A DNA stretch of 64,000 nucleotides from Asterias amurensis (Eukaryota; Echinodermata; Asteroidea; Forcipulatida; Asteriidae). Shown one piece after another: positions 1,614 to 39,600 of this stretch. Position numbers and translations under genes: made by a program. Every line of letters starts with the position of its first letter. Positions within the stretch are counted from its first letter, which is position 1. The notes under the pieces are model-generated. The model did no database searches. It was not told the origin of the DNA and worked only from the letters and a program-made list of their open reading frames with translations. Location: positions 4,438,001 through 4,502,000 of the forward strand of contig NC_092665.1 of assembly GCF_032118995.1 (NCBI RefSeq), read 5' to 3'.

Positions 1614-3158
1614 ATGGATGGACGGATCTCGATGTATGTTTTGTTGGTGTGTGTTTGGTGTTCACTTGATGCAGGCGGACTCCCGATGGTTGCCACTGCT
1701 GACCCAACAGTGATTGCGGTGATCTTAACACCAGAGGCTGATCGTGAAGAGGATGGGCAGGTTGATATGAGGTGTACCGCTACGAACCTCCAGCCGGATT
1801 CCATAGTGGAGTGGATGACTAAAAACAGAATGAATGTAAACCCCGATGTCACTCTGAGGTGGAATGACACTACAATAACCTCCAACAGCCGGTTTATGTA
1901 CGCTACAACCTATCCAGGGAGTGGGATGGTTGTTCAATACTTAACGATTACTGATCTGCAGATTGAAGACTATGATGAATATATTTGTAACGTCAACCAC
2001 CCTATCACAGGAGGAGGAAGCACAATTGTAGCTACATCCAGCGTAATCCTGTCAGCTCCATCGTACCCAATATGTTCCCCTTCTGGACCTATCACAGTAT
2101 ACACCGGTAGAGAGTTACAATTGAGATGTCTATATTATGCTGACAACCCTGCAGCTATAATGGAAACTCACCAAATGAATAACTCTGGAAGCTACACCTG
2201 GACATCATTGAACACCAATGACATCATCGCCGAATGGACATTGAATTTGACTGTTGGTAATGCTCAAAATGATGTTGCATTCAACTGCACTGTACCCCAA
2301 GGAACTTCAGATAATGTGAAGCGTTACGGCAGCTGTATCATTGGACCAATCAGTGTGACGATGTCGACAAGTACTACTATAACTGCAGTCACAATGCTTG
2401 CAACGGATACCCCACCACCTGCATCCAGCTCAGCAGCCATTGCTGGGGCAATCGGAGGAGGAATAGCTGCAATCCTTATCATCATAATCATCATCTTGAT
2501 TTGCAGAAAACGTCTCTGTCACCAGACTACAAAAGACCCGGTCTTAAATCTCAGCACTAAGTTTACACCAGATCACCCGGAACATTCTCCCAGTTTCGTT
2601 GATCCGTATGGGGTGGACACTTATGACCAATCACATTCCAGCCACCCAGTCGCTCCTCCACCCGCATCCAAGCCAGCCCCATCCCCCACTAAACCCCCAT
2701 CATCGGACCCAGCAGTTTACGCCCAACCAAACAGCAACGCAAGAGGGCGGTATTCAGAAAATCCCGATGACGTCACGTCCCACAACAACCCTGCATTCAA
2801 CTCAACTGGCTTAGATGGAGTTACTGAGCTATACGCACCTATGAAACCAGTAGCAAAGGTCAGGCCATCCAAGACACCCAGAAAACCCGAACCGTATAAA
2901 CCCAAATCAGAGCGACAGAGCAACCCACCTGAACCTACCAATCGAGACCCGATGCCCCAGTCACCCCCTAATGACCATGACGAATCCCACCCAGTACCCG
3001 ATAATCCTACTTATGCCCAAGTCTCTCGGCCCAAGAGCAACCCAGATCACATTGTCTACGCTGATTTGGATTTGCTATCATCGGACGAGGCTCAAGACGA
3101 TGAAGCCCGGCGCCCTCAATCATCTGATGCAGTGATGTACGCAAGTGTCAAAATGTAG
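1614..3158 (+). CDS. IgSF membrane receptor with SIRP-like ITIM tail, plus-strand copy 1
   Basis: 514 residues in one exon. The signal peptide is about residues 1-25. Ig domain 1 has Cys54 and Cys125, with DYDEYIC before the second Cys. Ig domain 2 has Cys172 and Cys225, plus an extra pair, Cys154 in PICSPSGPI and Cys241 in CIIGPISV. The membrane helix is about 273-297 (GAIGGG then an Ile run), followed by basic CRKR. The proline-rich tail carries tyrosine motifs at Y369, Y407 (LYAPM), Y467 (TYAQV), Y482 (IVYADL) and Y509 (VMYASV). The last two match the ITIM pattern [ILVS]xYxx[ILV], known to recruit SH2 phosphatases such as SHP-1/SHP-2 in vertebrates. The start ATG sits in AACAATGG and is conserved in all three copies. 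Likely an inhibitory surface receptor (inference); the ligand is unknown. It is the first member of a tandem array and convergent to a broken minus-strand receptor. Confidence 0.9.
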   Translation: MDGRISMYVLLVCVWCSLDAGGLPMVATADPTVIAVILTPEADREEDGQVDMRCTATNLQPDSIVEWMTKNRMNVNPDVTLRWNDTTITSNSRFMYATTYPGSGMVVQYLTITDLQIEDYDEYICNVNHPITGGGSTIVATSSVILSAPSYPICSPSGPITVYTGRELQLRCLYYADNPAAIMETHQMNNSGSYTWTSLNTNDIIAEWTLNLTVGNAQNDVAFNCTVPQGTSDNVKRYGSCIIGPISVTMSTSTTITAVTMLATDTPPPASSSAAIAGAIGGGIAAILIIIIIILICRKRLCHQTTKDPVLNLSTKFTPDHPEHSPSFVDPYGVDTYDQSHSSHPVAPPPASKPAPSPTKPPSSDPAVYAQPNSNARGRYSENPDDVTSHNNPAFNSTGLDGVTELYAPMKPVAKVRPSKTPRKPEPYKPKSERQSNPPEPTNRDPMPQSPPNDHDESHPVPDNPTYAQVSRPKSNPDHIVYADLDLLSSDEAQDDEARRPQSSDAVMYASVKM

Positions 3159-7482: not shown

Positions 7483-8001
7483 TTATGCATAAGAAACCTC
7501 TGCATACGGCGATTCGTCTTCAGGACTTATAGTCTCATCCTCGCCAAGATGGAAAATCAGACCAGTGGTAGCGATATAACAGTCAATGCAGTCTGCTGAA
7601 GGGGTATCCTTGGATGATGACGTCTCTACAACTGAGAGTGTCCAATGCGCAGACGCAGATGAGTCTGCTTATCACCTATCGTGTCACGTGATTGCTTCTT
7701 TCTATAGGCTTTTCTTCTAATCTTTGCGTACAAAATGGCTGAAGTCACGATGTTTGTTCTTCAAGCTGTCAGAGCTGTCATTAACATCTGATAATTTAGC
7801 TGTTTTGATTGGACGGGCGTACGTGACGTTATTAACTGAGTCTAGCGCCTTCTCGTGTGGTGGTTGAACTCCTGACGTAGATGGTAACTCCATTCGAGGT
7901 CGAACCAATTGGGGTATATTATTTTCTGGTATGATTTCATTGTTTGGGGTGGAGTCTTGGCTAGCCACCGATCGGGGTATTTGACTTGTAGGCAAGGTAT
8001 G
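7483..8001 (-). pseudogene. tail fragment of minus-strand IgSF receptor, unit 1
   Basis: Matches the cytoplasmic tail of the intact receptor at 23695-25251, from about its residue 348 (LPTSQIPRSVASQD) to the stop (EVSYA). Everything upstream (Ig domains, membrane helix) is missing. The join at 8001 changes abruptly to SINE-like sequence, at exactly the same base as in unit 2 (16198). A one-base change shifts the frame at the DFSHLYAKI motif, so the fragment is dead. It once lay convergent to receptor copy 1. Confidence 0.85.
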
Positions 8002-8540
8002 CTGTATACTTAACCATAATTGCTTCTCTGAACATAGGTGTGTAATGGGAACCTTTGACGTATGAGATCATAATATTTGGTTGGCTGTAACGTTAACTCT
8101 AGGGAGTTGAGAAAGTTTCTGGATGTGTAATGTTTAAAGTGCCTTGATCAAACGTTGTACTTAAAGTGATAGCCATGAAAACATATGCATTTTTTTAATA
8201 AAGTAAGTTACACAGAAAAAAACTGTTTATACAATTTTAGCAGTTAACTGTTTTAATTTATTTCATTCGTGTTTGATAGCCACTTGTTGATGTTCATAGC
8301 CACGCCATTTTAAAATTATGTATCACAATCAATGTTTGAGTTAAAGCGCGCGTTTCCAGGAATAATTTTGGTTTTTAAAATAGTCTGCATATCGTTTATT
8401 TCTCTGCATGCTTTATATTAAGAAAAAAGAAGATATTTTTTAAAGATTTTTATATTAATAGAAAACCAGAGCTGGATCATTTTAGCACAAATTTATCAAA
8501 TCTCACGAGAATTCGAACAAACTCTCACAGAAAAATGTGT
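8002..8540. other. repeat-derived spacer to the unit boundary
   Basis: Begins with the SINE-like text TTAACCATAATTGCTTC and continues with GCCACTTGTTGATGTTCA, a second within-unit copy of 5085-5250. No gene is seen. Confidence 0.4.
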
Positions 8541-9313: not shown

Positions 9314-10886
9314 ATGGATGGAAGGATGTCTATGTATGTGTTGCTGGTGTGTGTTTGGTGTTCACTTGATGCAGGCGGACTCCTGATGGTTGTCATTGCT
9401 CAAACAGCCCCCATTGTAACGTCCAAACCGCTGGTACGGCAAATGGTGTCGGTGACATCGGTGATCTTAACACCGGAGGCTGATCGTAAGGAGGGCGGGC
9501 AGATTGATATGAGGTGCACCGCTATGAACCTCCAGCCGGAGTACATCGTGGAGTGGATTCGTCTCAATGCCACTCTGAGGCGGAATAACATTACACTAAC
9601 GACCAACAGACGGTTTATGTTCACTACAACCTATCCAGAGAGTGGGATGGTTGTTCAAGACTTTACGATTACTGATTTGGAGATTGATGACTATGATAAA
9701 TATATTTGTAATGTCAGGTACCTCATCTCAAGTGGTGGAAGCACCATTGTATCTACACATAGCGTATTCCTGTCAGCTCCATCATATCCAATATGCTCCC
9801 CTTCTGGACCTATCACAGAAGACACCGGTACAGAGCTACAGTTGAGATGTCTATCTGAGACTGATAACCCTGCAGTTATAATGGAAACTCGCCAAATGAA
9901 TAACTCTGGAAGCTACCCCTGGACATCATTGAACACCAGTAGCACCATCGTTGAATGGACGTTGAATTTGACTGTTGGTAATGCTCAAAATGATGTTGCA
10001 TTCAACTGCACTGTACCCACAGGAACGTTAGATAATGTGAAGCGTTACGGCAGCTGTATCATTGGACCAATCAGTGTGACAATGTCGACAGGTACCACTG
10101 TAACTGCAGTCACAATGCTTGCAACGGATACCCCACCACCTGCATCCAGCTCAGCAGCCATTGCTGGGGCAATCGGGGGAGGAATAGCTGCAATCCTTAT
10201 CATCATAATCATCATCTTGATTTGCAGAAAACGTCTCTGTCACCTGACTACAAAAGACCCGGTCTTAAATCTCAGCACTTTGTTTACACCAGATCACCCG
10301 GAACCTTCTCCCAGTTTCGTTGATCCGTTTGGGGTGGACACTTATGACCAATCACATGCCAGCCATCCCCACCCAGTCGCTCCTTCACTCGGTTCCACAC
10401 CAGCCCCATCCCCCACTAAACGCCATCGGAACCAGTAGTTTACGCCCAACCGAACAACAACGTAAGAGGGCGGTATTCAGAAAACGCCGATGACGTCACG
10501 TCCCACAACAACCCTGCATTCAACTCAACTGGCTTGGGTGTAGGTCTGAGCTATACGCACACATGAAACCAGTAGCAAAGGTCAGGCCCTGCAAGACACC
10601 CATAAAACCCGAACCGTATAAACTCAAATCAGTACGACAGAGCAACCCACCTGAACCCACCAATCGAGACCCGATGCCCCAGTCGCCCCCTACTGATCAT
10701 GACCATGACGAATCCTACCCAGTACCCGATAATCCTACTTATGCCCAAGTCTCTCGACCCAAGAGCAACCCAGATCACATTGTCTACGCTGATTTGGATT
10801 TGCTATCATCAGACGAGGCTTAAGATGATGAAGCCCGGCGCCCTCAATCGTCTGATGCAGTGATGTACGCGAGTGTCCAAGTGTAG
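9314..10886 (+). pseudogene. IgSF receptor copy 2, tail frameshifted (374-residue ITIM-less product)
   Basis: The frame is open from the conserved ATG for 374 residues (9314-10438): signal peptide, both Ig domains with all six cysteines including PICSPSGPI and CIIGPISV, and the full membrane helix with CRKRLCH. At about 10420 a deletion relative to copies 1 and 3 shifts the frame. The product then ends in RHRNQ, before every tail tyrosine except the one in DTYDQSH. Homology to the lost tail runs on to the old stop at 10886, with a second frame change near 10545 and a stop (TAA for CAA) near 10820. It may be a dying gene, or a surface receptor without inhibitory signalling that acts as a decoy. 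The intact ectodomain allows the second reading, but expression is not known. Confidence 0.8.
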
Positions 10887-15683: not shown

Positions 15684-16198
15684 TTATGCATAAGAAACCT
15701 CTGCATACGGCGATTCGTCTTCAGGACTTATAGTCTCATCCTCGCCAAGTTGGAAAATCAGACCAGTGGTAGCGATATAACAGTCAATGCAGTCTGCTGA
15801 AGGGGTATCCTTGGATGATGACGTCTCTACAAACGAGAGTGTCCAATGCGCAGACGCAGATGAGTCTGCGTCACCTATCGTGTCACGTGATTGCTTCTTT
15901 CTATAGGCTTTTCTTCTAATCTTTGCGTACAAATGGCTAAAGTCACGATGTTTGTTCTTTAAGCTGTCAGTGTTGTCATTAACATCTGATGATTGAGCTG
16001 TTTTGATTGGACGGGCGTACGTGACGTCATTAACTGAGTCTAGCGCCTTCTCGTGTGGTGGTTGAACTCCTGACGTAGATGGTAACTCCATTCGAGGTCG
16101 AACCAATTGGGATATATTTTTTCTGGTATGATTTCATTGTTTGGGGTGGAGTCTTGGCTAGCCACCGATCGGGGTATTTGACTTGTAGGCAAGGTATG
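15684..16198 (-). pseudogene. tail fragment of minus-strand IgSF receptor, unit 2
   Basis: Open from the tail region (RPRMELPSTSGVQ) to the stop after EVSYA, about 90% alike to the tail of the intact receptor at 23695-25251, with VTYARPI, HLYAKI and SPYAEV motifs kept. The 5' part, coding the signal peptide, Ig domains and membrane helix, is absent. The break at 16198 is at the same base as in unit 1. A one-base loss near 16112 also shifts the frame. It is not expected to make a surface protein. Confidence 0.85.
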
Positions 16199-23694: not shown

Positions 23695-25251
23695 TTATAC
23701 ATAAGAAACCTCTGCATACGGCGATTCGTCTTCAGGACTTATGGTCTGATCCTCGCCAAGATGAAATATAAGACCAGTAGTAGCGATATAACAGTCAATG
23801 CACTCTGCTGAAGGGGTATTCTGAGATGATGACGTCTCTACAAACGAGAGCGTCCAATGCGCAGACGCAGACGAGTCTACGTCACCTATCGTATCACGTG
23901 ATTGCTTCTTGCGCGAGGCTTTTCTTCTAATCTTTGCGTATAAATGACTGAAGTCACGATGCTTGTTCTTTAAGCTGTCAGTGTTGTCGTTAACATCTGA
24001 TGATTTAGCTGTTTTGATTGGACGGGCGTACGTGACGTCATTAACTGAGTCTAACGCCCTCTCGTGTGGTGGTTGAACTCCTGACGTAGATGGTAACTCC
24101 ATTCGAGGTCTAACTAATTGGGGTATATTTTGTTCTGGTATGATTTCATTATTTGGGGTGGAGTCTTGGCTAGCCACCGATCGGGGTATTTGACTTGTAG
24201 GCAAGGTATGTGGTGACGGCAGCTCTTGGTACATAGGATCTATCATATCGTCAATAAGAACCAAGTTATCTTGAGACTGTTGTTCGGTAGAGTTTCTCCC
24301 AGTATTGTCATCTTCAGACTCAATTTCCTGCCTCCCTTTCTTACCTCTCTTCCATTTCCAATAACCGCAACGATGAAGGATAAGTAGTATCACTATAATG
24401 AGTAAGACGGTGACAATAAGAGTGACAATGACACTGACCGCGACAGATGGCCGAGTTATTAAAGGGAGTTGAGAAGTCATAATTGAAGATGTTGAAGATG
24501 TACCTTCTTGGGTGGCTGTGGAGGTGTAGAGAGGGGTGGATGGGGGTATCTCAAATGCAGTTGGAGGGATGACTGATATTGGACCGATTGTACATTGTTT
24601 CGTCATATTAGGAAAATACTGAGATGAAGTTATACACTGATAGGATACTCCATTGTCGCTGGTGTTCAAAATCAGATCCAGAGAGTTGACAAGTTTGCCG
24701 GCAGTCTCAGTCAGCATCCAGCTTTCATTGTTAGGTGAGGTGGTATTTGTCTGTAGCGTGGCTATTGGGAAGCCCCTATCTGCCGTACAGTTGACTGTGA
24801 TTGGGGTATTTTGAGTAACGTTTACGGGTCCACTTGGTGAGCATAGCAGCGAATCAGGAAAGTGTAAGACAGAGAGGTAGATGGTATCAGAAGCTATAAT
24901 ATCGCCTGATGTTTCTGCATAGCATTCGTAATAACCGGTATCTGTAGAACTGTTAAAATCGTGTATTTGTGCAAAATGGGCAACAGGCGTATGACCATCA
25001 GGTAATGTTAACGAGCTCGTCGTAAATCGATGTGTCATGTAACTTACTGACTCGATGTTCACCCCATCTTTCCGAAATCCAACAGTGAAGTTTTGCTGAA
25101 AGTCTGTTGTGGTGCATTTTAACCGCACGTCGTTCTCGTCTTGAATGTCAACCAGCTTTGACTTGATTTCCATAGAAACAGATGGTTCTTTCGCAAAGAC
25201 ACCAAACAGTAAATAGCTGAGTATTATTAACAACCATACCTTCACGTCCAT
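23695..25251 (-). CDS. IgSF membrane receptor, intact minus-strand member
   Basis: 518 residues in one exon. Signal peptide 1-20 (VWLLIILSYLLFGVFA). Ig domain 1 has Cys46 and Cys110 (DTGYYEC). Ig domain 2 has Cys155 and Cys206, with the extra pair Cys137 in LCSPSGPV and Cys220 in CTIGPISV, the same layout as the plus-strand receptors, so the two sets are paralogues. A Thr/Ser-rich stalk (232-266) precedes the membrane helix (about 270-292) and a basic KWKRGKKGR stop. Tail tyrosines: Y341 (MYQEL), Y408 (TYARP), Y438 (HLYAKI), Y488 and Y512 (SPYAEV). Only SPYAEV fits the ITIM pattern fully. Many N-glycosylation sites. It is convergent to receptor copy 3. Broken tails of sister copies lie at 7483-8001 and 15684-16198. 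Probably a signalling surface receptor; the ligand is unknown. Confidence 0.9.
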   Translation of the reverse strand: MDVKVWLLIILSYLLFGVFAKEPSVSMEIKSKLVDIQDENDVRLKCTTTDFQQNFTVGFRKDGVNIESVSYMTHRFTTSSLTLPDGHTPVAHFAQIHDFNSSTDTGYYECYAETSGDIIASDTIYLSVLHFPDSLLCSPSGPVNVTQNTPITVNCTADRGFPIATLQTNTTSPNNESWMLTETAGKLVNSLDLILNTSDNGVSYQCITSSQYFPNMTKQCTIGPISVIPPTAFEIPPSTPLYTSTATQEGTSSTSSIMTSQLPLITRPSVAVSVIVTLIVTVLLIIVILLILHRCGYWKWKRGKKGRQEIESEDDNTGRNSTEQQSQDNLVLIDDMIDPMYQELPSPHTLPTSQIPRSVASQDSTPNNEIIPEQNIPQLVRPRMELPSTSGVQPPHERALDSVNDVTYARPIKTAKSSDVNDNTDSLKNKHRDFSHLYAKIRRKASRKKQSRDTIGDVDSSASAHWTLSFVETSSSQNTPSAECIDCYIATTGLIFHLGEDQTISPEDESPYAEVSYV

Positions 25252-29059: not shown

Positions 29060-30244
29060 TTACATGTCTGATATGATGTTATACACGGGAACGTCTAAGT
29101 TGTTTTCATGTGTTTCCGGAATATCAATAAGGACATCATCGCCTTCCCTACGTGGCCACTGCCTTGGGTTATAAATCTCAAAATCAAGAATATGGAACGG
29201 AGGAGTTGATCGTCGTGACGTCAGATCTTCCTCATCCGAGCATTTTGTGACGTCATTGGGGTGAGTTTTACCGGAACGGAACGCAAGCAGAACACACATT
29301 GCTGTTAGCGAGAAGGCTAGGATGACTATTGAAGATGCTAAGCCAGCTACGAGGAATGTTTGAGGGGTTGTTTCTAATTTTGCTCCTATGGTAGACCCTA
29401 TGGTAGGTGTAACGTTACGGCCAGCGACTTGAATGGAGGTTAGACTACTCTCCGTGACGTGTGGAGTTGTACGGATTGATGTCGTTGCTGGGGAAGATGT
29501 AGTCTTTATAAGTGGCGGATAGATGACCAACTGACCAATCGTACAGCTTTTCTGACGCAATGGGAAATAATAAGGAGATGTGACTATACATTCAAATGAT
29601 ACACCGTCATCTTCAGCACTCACTGTTATGTCAGCTTCTCTACTTAGTAACTTATCTGTTTCTAAGGCAACGAAGATTCCAGTTACGTTTGCTGACTTTT
29701 TCATAACCGTGAGTATAACGTTTGGATAGCCAGGGGTTGATGAGCAGCTTAAATGAAGGAGTTCATTTAGTGCTACTATGCGTGGTCCATTTGGTGTACA
29801 TATTGGAGATTCGTCCGGGAAATGTGGAATAGATAAGGAAATATTGTCTGAATCTAGTACCATACTTCCTCCTGTGTGGAGGAAAACCTTCAAGTTGCAA
29901 GCGTAGACGTCAGTGTCGCTCAGAGTAACTTGAGAAAGCGTCATATGTTGAGATAAAGTCCCAATCCTTGAATCATAAGGGAGTGTTCTGACATTGTATT
30001 TCGGGTCGTAAGATGTACCGTTCCATACTAACGTCTTAGATGGTCTCCTCCACTCGACGATAAAACCAGTTAGTCCAGGTAGATTGAGGCCAGTGACGTC
30101 ACATTGTAGTTCAACAGCGCCCCCTTCTTGTATCTCACGCTCTACAGTGTTGATTTGTATTGTCACTGTAGGGTTTATAAGAGTCTGTGCTTTGCAGATA
30201 CAAACACAAAGGATACTGAGAACAAGCTTCATGGTTACTGTCAT
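29060..30244 (-). CDS. divergent IgSF membrane receptor of the same family, no ITIM
   Basis: 394 residues from the ATG at 30244 (a second ATG at 30232 is equally possible), in one exon. Signal peptide about 1-19 (MKLVLSILCVCICKAQ). Ig domain 1 has Cys48 and Cys116 (DTDVYAC). Ig domain 2 has Cys167 and Cys219 (DGVSFEC), with the family's extra pair Cys149 in PICTPNGP and Cys234 in CTIGQLV. A Thr-rich stalk is followed by a membrane helix about 297-321. The tail is short (about 72 residues), acidic, and has only two tyrosines, Y358 (EIYNPR) and Y388 (VYNII). Neither is an ITIM; YNII could be an endocytic YxxPhi signal. The frame is open 47 codons further upstream, but that part overlaps a duplicated 5' flank and would bury the signal peptide. 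Role unknown; perhaps a non-inhibitory partner of the array's receptors. Confidence 0.85.
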   Translation of the reverse strand: MTVTMKLVLSILCVCICKAQTLINPTVTIQINTVEREIQEGGAVELQCDVTGLNLPGLTGFIVEWRRPSKTLVWNGTSYDPKYNVRTLPYDSRIGTLSQHMTLSQVTLSDTDVYACNLKVFLHTGGSMVLDSDNISLSIPHFPDESPICTPNGPRIVALNELLHLSCSSTPGYPNVILTVMKKSANVTGIFVALETDKLLSREADITVSAEDDGVSFECIVTSPYYFPLRQKSCTIGQLVIYPPLIKTTSSPATTSIRTTPHVTESSLTSIQVAGRNVTPTIGSTIGAKLETTPQTFLVAGLASSIVILAFSLTAMCVLLAFRSGKTHPNDVTKCSDEEDLTSRRSTPPFHILDFEIYNPRQWPRREGDDVLIDIPETHENNLDVPVYNIISDM

Positions 30245-30257
30245 ACTGAAGAATATC

Positions 30258-30545
30258 AACGTTGGTTTTCGAGAAAACCGAACAGCCAGTTCAATAAAAG
30301 CTGGTTCCTTTATTTGCTGATAATATGCGTGTCGAACTTCTCGAAATGTACAAATCGTTGAGGTTGTTGAAGTTCTGCATACCATAGATCACAATGTTGG
30401 TTCTCCCAAAACCGAACATCCAGTTCAGGCTAAGCCGAATCCTTTATGGTGGTCGTTGATTAAATCGTAATACGTTTGCGTGTCAAACTTCTCGAATTGC
30501 ACAAATCGTTGTGGCAAAGTTGATATTCTGCAAACCTCATAGATC
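30258..30545. repeat. imperfect tandem duplication in the 5' region of the divergent receptor
   Basis: Two units of about 135-150 bp. CGTGTCGAACTTCTCGAAATG (30330) is matched by CGTGTCAAACTTCTCGAATTG (30479), and AAAACCGAACAGCCAGTTCA (30275) by AAAACCGAACATCCAGTTCA (30408). Confidence 0.7.
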
Positions 30546-36672: not shown

Positions 36673-39600
36673 ATGGCGTGCAGTAATGTCATTAGGAATT
36701 TATGTCGCCTTAAGACTATGGACTTGAGCACAGATGAAACTAAACTGAAGAAATGTCTGTCATGTCTTGATCTGACGTTGATGGGTGTCTCTGGTATGGT
36801 TGGTGTTACTCTGTATGTCTTAACTGGAGTTGTGGCAAAGGAAATTGCTGGACCATCCATGGTTCTATCTCTAGTTTTCGGTTGTTTAGCCGCCATGTTG
36901 GCTGCGTTATGTTATGCTGAATTGGGAAGTATCTTCACTAAAACAGGCTCGGCATATTTATTCACCTACTCCATTATTGGCGAGTTTCCAGCCTTCTTAG
37001 TTGGTTGGAGTGTATTACTGGAATATATCTTGAGTACTGCAGTTGTTGCTAGCGGCTGGTCGGGATATTTAAATTCGTTGACAAATCATAAAATATCTAA
37101 CTTCATTGTTGAAGTGTTGATGGGTGGAGAAACATGGAACTCATCCTTTGTGACTGAAGTTCCTGATATAGTTGGTGGCCTCGTTACGCTACTAATTTTA
37201 CTTGTCGTTGGAATAGGAACTGGCTTAAGTTCTACTGTTAACAATGTCTTGTTAATGCTTAATATCGGCATAGTTGCCTTTATAAGTGTTGGTGGTCTCA
37301 TCTTTGCAGATGGAAACAACTGGACGGAGAGGGGTTTCTTCCCTTTCGGATTTGGTGGAACAATGTCTGGTGCTGCGATTTTATTTATCGGTTATGTTGG
37401 TTTTGATATAATTGCGGTCTCTTCAGAAGAAGCTATTGATAGTCACAAAAGCGTACCACGAGCTATCATTGGATCTCTCGTCATTGTAGCAATTATATAC
37501 ACCGTTGTAGCCGTTAGTTTAACCCTAGCTGTACCGTTCTACGAAATCGACATCACTGCCGTACTATCAACGCCATTTGTTAAGCATAACTTGATATGGG
37601 CCAAGTACGTTGTTGATATTGGTGCATTGTGTTCTATGGGAGCTTGTTTAGTACCATCAGCCTATGCAATGCCAAGAATAACATACGCTATGGGAGTTGA
37701 TGGTCTACTCTTCAAGTTGTTCACCACGGTACACCCTACGACTCAGACACCACTTGTAGGAACACTTTGCATAGGGGCATTCGCAACTTTTCTTGTGGTT
37801 TTCTTCGATCTGTCCACCCTGTCCAATGTGCTTTCCATCGGGACACTAGTTGCGTTCAACATGGTCGCAGTGTGCGTCATGTTTCTACGATACCAGAAAA
37901 CTAGTCTCACTCGTCATATCCTTCAACATAATACTATGACGTCATCACAAGATGGCGACGCGGATGATGAAGATAATGATGAGAAAACAACCCGTTTCCT
38001 TGACAACCACGACAACGATCAACCAGTCACAGGAGGAGTATTAAAACCCAGATTTCAGTTCCTTACAACCATGAATAGCTACCCACCTTGCATTGTTCCG
38101 AGTGTATGTATTGTGACTTCTACATGCCTTACAGTACTCTTGGTGGCCATTTGTGTGGTCTTCATGGATGACATCAAAGCAGGAGAATGGTGGGTCATTC
38201 TACTCGTCATAGTACTCACCGTCTCAACTCTCTTGACATTTATCCCCATCACTCTCCATGAGCAAGTTAACATTGGATCGCCATTTAAGGTACGTAAAAT
38301 ATTGCTAGATTCCAGTCGTCTTTAAAGGCAGTGAAAACTATTGGTAATTACTCAAAATAATTATGAGCATAAAACCTTTCTTGGTGACAAGTACTGGGGA
38401 GAGGTTGGTGGTATAAAACATTGTGAGAAACAGCTCCCTCTGAAGTGCCATAGTTTTGGAGAAATAAGTAATTTTCCACGAATTTGATTTCGAGACCTCA
38501 AGTTTAGAACTTGGGGTCTCGAAATCAACCATCTAAACGCACACAACTTCGTGTGACAAGGGTGTTTTCTTCTTTCATTATTATCTCGCAACTTTGATGA
38601 CCGATTGAGCTCAAATTTTCACAGGTTTGTTATTTTATGCATATGTTGAGATGCACCAGCTGTGAAGGCTAGTCTTTGACAATTACCAATAGTGTCCACT
38701 GCCTTTAAGACACGGGGGTCGATTTCACAAAGAGTTAGGAGGACTAGTCCTAGGAGATATACAAAATGTATGCGTAGACCTAAGTTAGGATGAGTAACTC
38801 GTCCATAACTCAAGATAAGACTCTTTGTGAAATCGACCCCTGGACTCATTTGGTAATATTGTCAAAGACCAGTCTTCTCACTTGCTGTATCTCAACGAAT
38901 GCACAAAATAACAAACCTGTGAAAATTTGAACTCAATTGGTCGTCCAAGTTGCGAGATAATAATGGAAGAAAAAACGGTGTTGTGTGCATTCAGATGCTT
39001 GATTTCGGGACCTCAAAATCTAATTGTCTCAAAATCAAATTCAAACTTTTTAGTGGAAAATTAGTACGTTACTTCAGAGGGAGCCGTATAATATCGATAG
39101 CTCCCAATTGCTCGTTACCAAGTACCTTTTGTTATCAATAATTTTTTTCAGTAATTATACCAACGCTGTTGGTAATTACTTGAAGTATCTGTTAGCATAA
39201 TCACACTAACTGAGAAACGAGCAATGGAGAGCCGTTGATAGTATAAAACATTGAGAAACGGCTCCCTCTGAAGTGACATAGTTTTGAGAAAGAGATAACT
39301 TCGAAACGTCGAGTTGAAATCGACGGTTCTTTTCAGAATCACCCAAACTCACTTAGAGATTGATGTATATAATAATTCCACCAAATCCAACTTAGGTAAT
39401 GTATCATTAAAATAATAAAAGACTTTTAAAAGCACACAAAGTACACAAAGTATTTCAACAAGGATATATATATATATTTTTTCCATTTTTCTCTTGCGAA
39501 TTCAATGACCAATATTGAACCCAAATTCTCACAGGTTTGATATGTTATGCACATGATGATACACCAAGTGAGAATACTTGTCTTTGACAATTTACCAAAC

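Follow-up and report, generated by a model that had tools for sequence, protein, structure and literature searches.

Paired tyrosine motifs in sea-star immunoglobulin-type receptors: a clustered, intronless family in Asterias amurensis with candidate inhibitory tails and alternative short tails

How should one read a sea-star receptor of the immunoglobulin (Ig) type whose last residues look like those of vertebrate SIRP-alpha: is it an inhibitory receptor at all and, if so, was its tail inherited from early deuterostomes or arrived at independently? The question is raised by a 64,000-nucleotide stretch of the Asterias amurensis genome (contig NC_092665.1, C18:4438001-4502000, hereafter the window), in which an original prediction had noticed that two receptor genes, copies 1 and 3, close with two immunoreceptor tyrosine-based inhibitory motifs (ITIMs). 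The sequence comparisons described here place copies 1 and 3 in a large family of clustered, intronless genes for surface receptors with two Ig-like domains, and we think it rather probable that this family consists of convergent inhibitory and partner receptors acting through the phosphatase SHP-2.

Copy 1 has the build of a type I membrane protein, in which a hydrophobic signal segment is followed by two Ig-like domains, a transmembrane (TM) segment and a tail of 211 residues; bases 3033-3158 contain its final 41 codons and the stop. The features of copy 1 and the two other plus-strand copies are the following (window positions; ORF, open reading frame):

1614..3158, plus strand: copy 1, single-ORF receptor of 514 residues (ORF; Pfam Ig families; hydrophobicity; full-length paralogues)
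1695..2054, plus strand: Ig-like domain 1 of copy 1, residues about 28-147 (Pfam; strands in a low-confidence model)
2055..2351, plus strand: Ig-like domain 2 of copy 1, residues about 148-246, with four invariant cysteines (cysteine columns of the 13-row alignment A4)
2436..2522, plus strand: TM segment of copy 1, residues 275-303 (Kyte-Doolittle 2.99; predicted helix 275-303)
2787..2798, plus strand: NPxF motif (NPAF) of the copy 1 tail (NPxF in 19 of 22 long tails)
2883..2906, plus strand: KPEPYKPK of the copy 1 tail, containing Y428 (KPxPY[KQ]xK in 22 of 22 long tails; top of 204 windows)
3051..3068, plus strand: ITIM 1, IVYADL, residues 480-485, Y482 codon 3057-3059 (strict consensus match)
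3132..3149, plus strand: ITIM 2, VMYASV, residues 507-512, Y509 codon 3138-3140 (strict consensus match)
9314..10438, plus strand: copy 2, ORF of 374 residues, tail frame broken (80% identity to copy 1, residues 1-364)
10518..10880, plus strand: tail remnant of copy 2 in a different frame, with one in-frame TAA
18966..20513, plus strand: copy 3, single-ORF receptor of 515 residues with both ITIMs and the C-terminus YASVQV

For domain 1 of copy 1 Pfam returned Ig_3 with E 8.9e-05, which is under that model's cut-off, C1-set marginally above its cut-off, and V-set and I-set more weakly. Pfam gives no separate match for domain 2 of copy 1; the corresponding domain of a minus-strand relative matches Ig_2. 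Its four cysteines (P-x-C-S-P-x-G-P ... C ... F-x-C ... C-x-I-G-P) are invariant in 13 of 13 rows of alignment A4, which suggests an additional disulphide and a family signature. An AlphaFold model made from five proteins of the window itself reached a predicted local distance difference test (pLDDT) value of 52.3 and a predicted template modelling (pTM) score of 0.38. When it was used in a fold search, the best 50 of 1993 matches were mostly antibody fragments, with template modelling scores by query length of 0.18-0.26, and for the fold we would claim nothing narrower than Ig-like. The best 21-residue window of the TM segment contains no charged residue. In the tail we take NPxF to be a possible PTB-domain site and KPxPY[KQ]xK a possible SH3 site.

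With the strict ITIM defined as [SIVL]xYxx[ILV], both IVYADL and VMYASV of copy 1 fit the consensus, Y482 and Y509 are 27 residues apart, and copy 3 ends in SVQV, all as the original prediction had it. Two lengths need a small correction: 19 residues, not 18, lie between the two eight-residue blocks, and the end is reached 35 residues, not 36, from the start of IVYADLDL. Of the SIRP-alpha sequences quoted for comparison, EYASVQV appears in print, in a peptide ending ...FSEYASVQV (PMC10065799). Where the comparison has the other, LTYADLDM, the printed tail reads DITYADLNL...HTEYASIQTS (PMC5589908), and YADLDM has 0 occurrences in the available text of the papers matched by searches for SIRP-type tail motifs. 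The likeness in motifs and flanks is real, but it is local and confined to part of the family, a cluster on contig C1 departing from it. When the residues of the copy 1 tail were shuffled 20,000 times, two strict ITIMs at any spacing arose in 1.7%, a strict pair 20-35 residues apart in 0.18%, and such a pair with its second motif at most 12 residues from the C-terminus in 0.005%. We regard conservation among the paralogues as a stronger argument for the pair than these shuffle odds.

The genome searched comprises 491.5 Mb in 23 contigs. A protein search with copy 1 found at least 92 matching pieces, on C18, C13, C10, C1, C7, C5, C8 and C21, mostly within open frames that run for several hundred residues. 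With the last 88 residues of copy 1 as query there are 18 matching places (six on C18, eight on C13, four on C10), and eight genes on C1 have long matches to copy 1. Six of the latter end in the double motif; L086 keeps only the first motif in frame, and neither motif was found in L078. Among these 26 long-tail genes both motifs are in frame in 22, two of which, L028 and L029, have a stop in the ectodomain. The motifs are retained in paralogues whose ectodomains are just 43-50% identical to that of copy 1. It should be kept in mind that the rows compared below were chosen by motif, the long ones with a regular expression that matches the motif pair, the short ones with MELQ, which makes the motif counts inside each set partly circular.

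Of the nine tyrosines in the copy 1 tail only three, Y428, Y482 and Y509, recur in every one of the 22 long rows, the other six being found in 1 to 18. As the rows were picked by the motif pair, the invariance of Y482 and Y509 is built in; what is free of this bias is that Y428 never varies and that the other six do. The paired tyrosines are 26-28 residues apart, and I or V stands at -2 in 16 of the 22 rows. Identity between groups, calculated for 204 tail windows, averages 0.32 over the tail; windows of ITIM 1 rank second and third (0.74), and ITIM 2 reaches 0.60. The strict pair occurs in 16 of 16 rows from C18, C13 and C10 and in none of the six from C1, where the motifs read TTYAEL or TAYAEL and PIYATV or PTYATV, and where L084 and L085 have an extra VTYAQV motif upstream. 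In the 10 genes from C13 and C10 (L028 and L029 left out) the 16 ITIM codons show no nonsynonymous differences (pN 0.000) at a synonymous value (pS) of 0.156. Over all 22 long rows, L028 and L029 included, pN/pS is 0.46 (0.18-0.94) in the ITIM codons and 0.71 (0.63-0.81) in the mid-tail. The codon statistics thus agree, if weakly, with the conservation of the motifs.

Related ectodomains are also found with an unrelated, tyrosine-rich short tail of 85-105 residues, whose motifs are [DE]xYMEL, [VI]Y[MT]EP, EYDYARP and SYEAV-like; the strict ITIM is absent from all 23 short tails fetched. A search with one 97-residue short tail gave 84 pieces. Near-complete pieces, extending from residue 18 or earlier to residue 91 or later, number 46, two with a stop, and lie on C13, C10, C7, C18, C8 and C5; six more, covering 82-86 residues, are on C1, where long- and short-tail genes are interleaved over about 80 kb on one strand. 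The short-tail partners and the size of the family are new beyond the earlier single-locus observation.

How the two tails are distributed was followed on a tree of 46 ectodomains (23 long-type, 22 short, 1 other; L028, L029, W25, W30, L088 and L089 were left out, and copy 2, L078 and L086, with their broken or altered tails, are counted among the long-type rows). This tree needs about 12 switches of tail type, at least six of them forced by well-supported branches, with 17 of 42 inner branches left open. Shuffled tail labels gave a mean of 15.7 changes, so the link between tail type and ectodomain lineage is only weak. The approximately unbiased test rejects a grouping of the long-tail genes in one clade (p-AU 4e-83), and a smaller tree of 43 rows (seven genes as well as L028 and L029 left out) has 10 tail changes. 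Pairwise identities disagree with tail type in the same way: the ectodomains of L021 (long, C18) and L087 (short, C7) are 81% identical, those of L086 (long-type) and L075 (short) 88%, and copies 1 and 3 share 64% of their ectodomain residues and 86% of the remainder behind the ectodomain. The tree changes and these mismatches indicate that tails or ectodomains were repeatedly exchanged, probably through gene conversion or recombination. Closely related ectodomains combined with different signalling tails are a paired-receptor architecture.

The pattern [DE]xYxxL is present in 22 of 23 short rows, a count that is largely circular because the rows were selected by MELQ. An immunoreceptor tyrosine-based activation motif (ITAM) is not claimed for the short tail: a pair with ITAM spacing occurs in 13 of 23 rows only and is missing in the members on C5, C8 and C1. 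TxYxxV is found in 18 and YxN in 16 of the 23 short tails (e.g. L031, L012, L087); we take the former to be a motif like the immunoreceptor tyrosine-based switch motif and the latter to be Grb2-like.

Four short-tail genes of C13:18868404-18884000 recur in 19030434-19046000 at an exact distance of 162,030 bases. One long-tail gene of C13 recurs in the same way at 162,057 bases, and the L037 and L038 proteins are identical. This may be a recent duplication or an unmerged haplotype. If the assembly holds both haplotypes of the C13 cluster, the gene counts given here are possibly inflated. The copies on C10 lie within the first 55 kb of the contig and may be a misplaced piece of the C13 cluster. 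The members on C1, C18, C5, C7 and C8 are free of such exact-offset recurrence.

A search of the genome for a tandem-SH2 phosphatase, which the original prediction had named as a check, found one on the contig of the window itself. This SHP-2-like gene (C18, 13.90-13.92 Mb) has two SH2 domains and, about 10-12 kb downstream, protein tyrosine phosphatase exons (13.916-13.918 Mb); the best PDB match of the tandem SH2 region in phmmer is SHP-2 (E 1.8e-91), with SHP-1 at 7.4e-65. The genome also encodes a CSK-like SH2 domain (L039, E 5.7e-31), which L040 resembles by eye, and a ZAP-70/SYK-like one (L044, E 3.3e-24), the SH2 domain alone being compared in these cases. Since an SHP-2 sensor responds to a SIRP-alpha peptide with two tyrosines that Src has phosphorylated (PMC5589908), the sea-star tails would be expected to work like that peptide.

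For the long tails we infer phosphorylation, SHP-2 binding, an inhibitory sign and an immune role. Ligand binding would cluster long-tail receptors and a Src-type kinase would phosphorylate both tail tyrosines; the doubly phosphorylated tail would engage both SH2 domains of the SHP-2-like phosphatase, which would then open and act on nearby phosphoproteins, damping or redirecting the signalling of co-engaged receptors. Receptors that combine a similar ectodomain with the short tail would recognise identical or related ligands and signal differently, as a non-inhibitory partner, perhaps activating or a scaffold. The inhibitory receptor system thus stands as a prediction, with motifs kept in paralogues and an SHP-2-like gene encoded; the special tie to SIRP-alpha that came with it does not stand. 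More tentatively, one may imagine an independently evolved, germline paired receptor complex of the natural killer (NK) receptor type: dozens of single-exon Ig receptors in several clusters, with exchanged ectodomains and either tandem-ITIM (SHP-2) or hemITAM-like (Syk-type) tails, possibly serving the allorecognition that has been described in juvenile sea stars. If the reading as inhibitory and partner receptors is true, these are candidate genes for sea-star allorecognition and coelomocyte responses, and the intact genes, the SHP-2 of the same genome and natural receptor pairs differing mainly in the tail make the system testable.

Several observations weigh against this reading. Among the eight-residue windows of the tail KPEPYKPK is the best conserved (between-group identity 0.78), at least on a par with the ITIMs, so conservation in the tail does not single out ITIM function. 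In the six C1 rows both motifs depart from the strict consensus at -2 and keep YxxL/YxxV. In C18 the pN/pS of the ITIM codons, 0.43 (0.13-1.64), is not significant (mid-tail 0.66), and in C1 constraint on these codons is not measurable (pS 0, pN 0.023). One or both motifs were lost in four of the 26 long-tail genes: copy 2, L076 and L086, which have frame breaks, and L078. Among the short rows a charged residue is present in the best 21-residue TM window of 1 of 23 (a lysine in L023), and an activating partner that would use a charged TM residue to recruit an ITAM adaptor is not supported as a general feature. Finally, the enzyme found is of the SHP-2 type, a separate SHP-1 not having been identified in a non-exhaustive genome search, and SHP-2 also acts positively, as described in macrophages (PMC5589908).

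These last two points are also what speaks for the best surviving alternative, namely that SHP-2 is recruited with a positive output (Ras/MAPK, corkscrew-type) and the receptors serve growth or adhesion and are not brakes: by its scores the sole tandem-SH2 phosphatase identified is an SHP-2 and not an SHP-1. Against it stands that immune-type paired receptors typically form large clustered families in which tails are swapped. A Botryllus family of similar logic lies in an allorecognition locus (PMC12065747). We consider a positive output possible, though improbable.

Somewhat less probable is a role of the tyrosine motifs in endocytic sorting, as YxxPhi signals which, together with NPxF, would serve ligand uptake by clathrin adaptors and not phosphatase recruitment. 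YADL and YASV both fit YxxPhi, Yxx[LV] is found in all 22 long rows, those of C1 included (the rows were chosen for it), conservation at -2 does not extend to C1, and NPxF is widespread in the long tails. A YxxPhi signal, however, has no need for Ala or Ser at +1, for a pair 26-28 residues apart or for I or V at -2, which 16 of the 22 long rows keep; the location of the motifs at the far C-terminus likewise speaks against an endocytic role. We hold this explanation to be unlikely.

It is very unlikely that the tails are decaying reading frames which inherited the motif without function. The moderate constraint on the mid-tail (pN/pS 0.66-0.77) and the loss of a motif in some genes would suit such relics, but open tails of about 200-350 residues are kept in 22 genes, the ITIM 1 windows are among the most conserved, and a pair 20-35 residues apart is rare among shuffled tails.

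Other vertebrate ITIM families share the motifs preferred by SHP SH2 domains. True descent, an echinoderm SIRP family member inherited from a deuterostome ancestor, is scarcely credible: DITYADL of L086 is identical to SIRP-alpha DITYADL (PMC5589908), and YASVQV of copy 3 to the end of a SIRP-alpha peptide (PMC10065799), at a similar spacing, but these motifs are short, follow the SHP SH2 preference and vary in detail within the family, and the receptors have two Ig-like domains with generic Ig matches only. In SIRP members a V-set domain is joined by two of the C1-set, three Ig domains in all (PMC12975943), whereas the sea-star receptors have room and conserved cysteines for two. Pfam assigns generic Ig families; in 3 of 13 members domain 1 also matches C1-set weakly. 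The first matches of a 13-sequence ectodomain profile include CEA, antibody chains, Dpr-interacting proteins and Dscam. There is no SIRP chain among the best 60 of 772 PDB profile matches, nor among the best 50 of 1993 fold matches obtained with the low-confidence model (pLDDT 52). The CD47 profile PF04549 has 0 matches in the genome, yet the control genomes are equally without a match, which leaves this result uninformative. Descent from SIRP was not accepted, on domain number and on the lack of a SIRP preference among the matches listed. Between the inherited and the convergent origin that the original prediction had left side by side, convergence of the tail on the preference of SHP SH2 domains appears better supported.

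The window contains further relatives of copy 1:

23695..25251, minus strand: related receptor of 518 residues in one ORF (26% identity to copy 1 across ectodomain and TM segment)
15684..16133, minus strand: tail-only remnant (92% identity to residues 373-517 of the intact 23695..25251 receptor)
7489..8013 (C18:4445489-4446013), minus strand: second tail-only remnant, with five in-frame stops (81% identity to residues 344-517 of the same intact receptor)
29060..30385, minus strand: further related receptor of 441 residues with a short tail (27% identity to copy 1 across the aligned ectodomain)

The tail of the 23695..25251 receptor contains DVTYARP, HLYAKI and, C-terminally, SPYAEVSYV. Positions 1614-25251 form a threefold tandem unit, in which the plus-strand copies starting at 1614, 9314 and 18966 are each followed by a minus-strand relative (the 7489-8013 remnant, the 15684-16133 remnant and the intact 23695-25251 gene, respectively). 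Comparing 300-base direct repeats at corresponding offsets of these units gives 83-99% identity, except in one ungapped comparison (63%). A copy 82% identical to the minus-strand receptor lies at C6:5973164-5974474 and, having five in-frame stops, is likely a pseudogene. Positions 36673-38325 of the window (plus strand) hold an intronless amino-acid permease ORF of 550 residues (PF13520, E 5.7e-40).

It is instructive to compare the sea-star family with known systems. The paired receptors of vertebrates include KIR, LILR, PIR, Siglec, CD300 and the FcR-like proteins. Common to them and to the sea-star receptors are an ectodomain lineage with opposed tails, clustering and repeated tail changes, which is a likeness of architecture. 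With the vertebrate SIRP family the sea-star receptors share an Ig ectodomain, an ITIM tail with nearly the same core residues and spacing, and the occurrence of like ectodomains with different tails (PMC12975943, PMC5589908, PMC10065799); they differ from it in having two Ig-like domains and a tyrosine-rich partner tail. In SIRP-beta a charged TM residue couples the receptor to DAP12, whereas 22 of 23 sea-star short-tail TM windows have no charged residue.

No echinoderm ITIM receptor family was among the open-licence literature matches listed, which does not imply its absence from print. The main text of an Asterias rubens proteomics study has 0 occurrences of immunoglobulin, ITIM and Ig-like and so gives no support for expression in coelomocytes (PMC13409769), and the word immunoglobulin has 0 occurrences in the available text of two A. 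amurensis genome papers. Among invertebrates, the fester co-receptors (FcoR) of Botryllus are likewise a large, clustered Ig receptor family with tyrosine-motif tails: they comprise 53 loci, sit in an allorecognition locus, and have tails with an ITIM, a hemITAM or a core motif (PMC12065747). Each combines one IgV and one sushi domain with two C2 Ig domains, and at two of the loci splicing can switch the motif (PMC12065747), whereas the sea-star genes are intronless, encode two Ig-like domains and differ in tail from gene to gene; Pfam scans of seven window proteins and 13 ectodomains gave no sushi match. The cnidarian Hydractinia has, in its Alr genes, ITIM and ITAM-type motifs in allorecognition genes as well (cited in PMC12065747). 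If the sea-star receptors are what we take them to be, echinoderms would join vertebrates, tunicates and cnidarians as animals with large Ig-type receptor families carrying ITIM and alternative tails, and the logic of brake and partner would be a recurrent solution built on an old SHP-2/Src/Syk toolkit, not a vertebrate inheritance of particular receptors.

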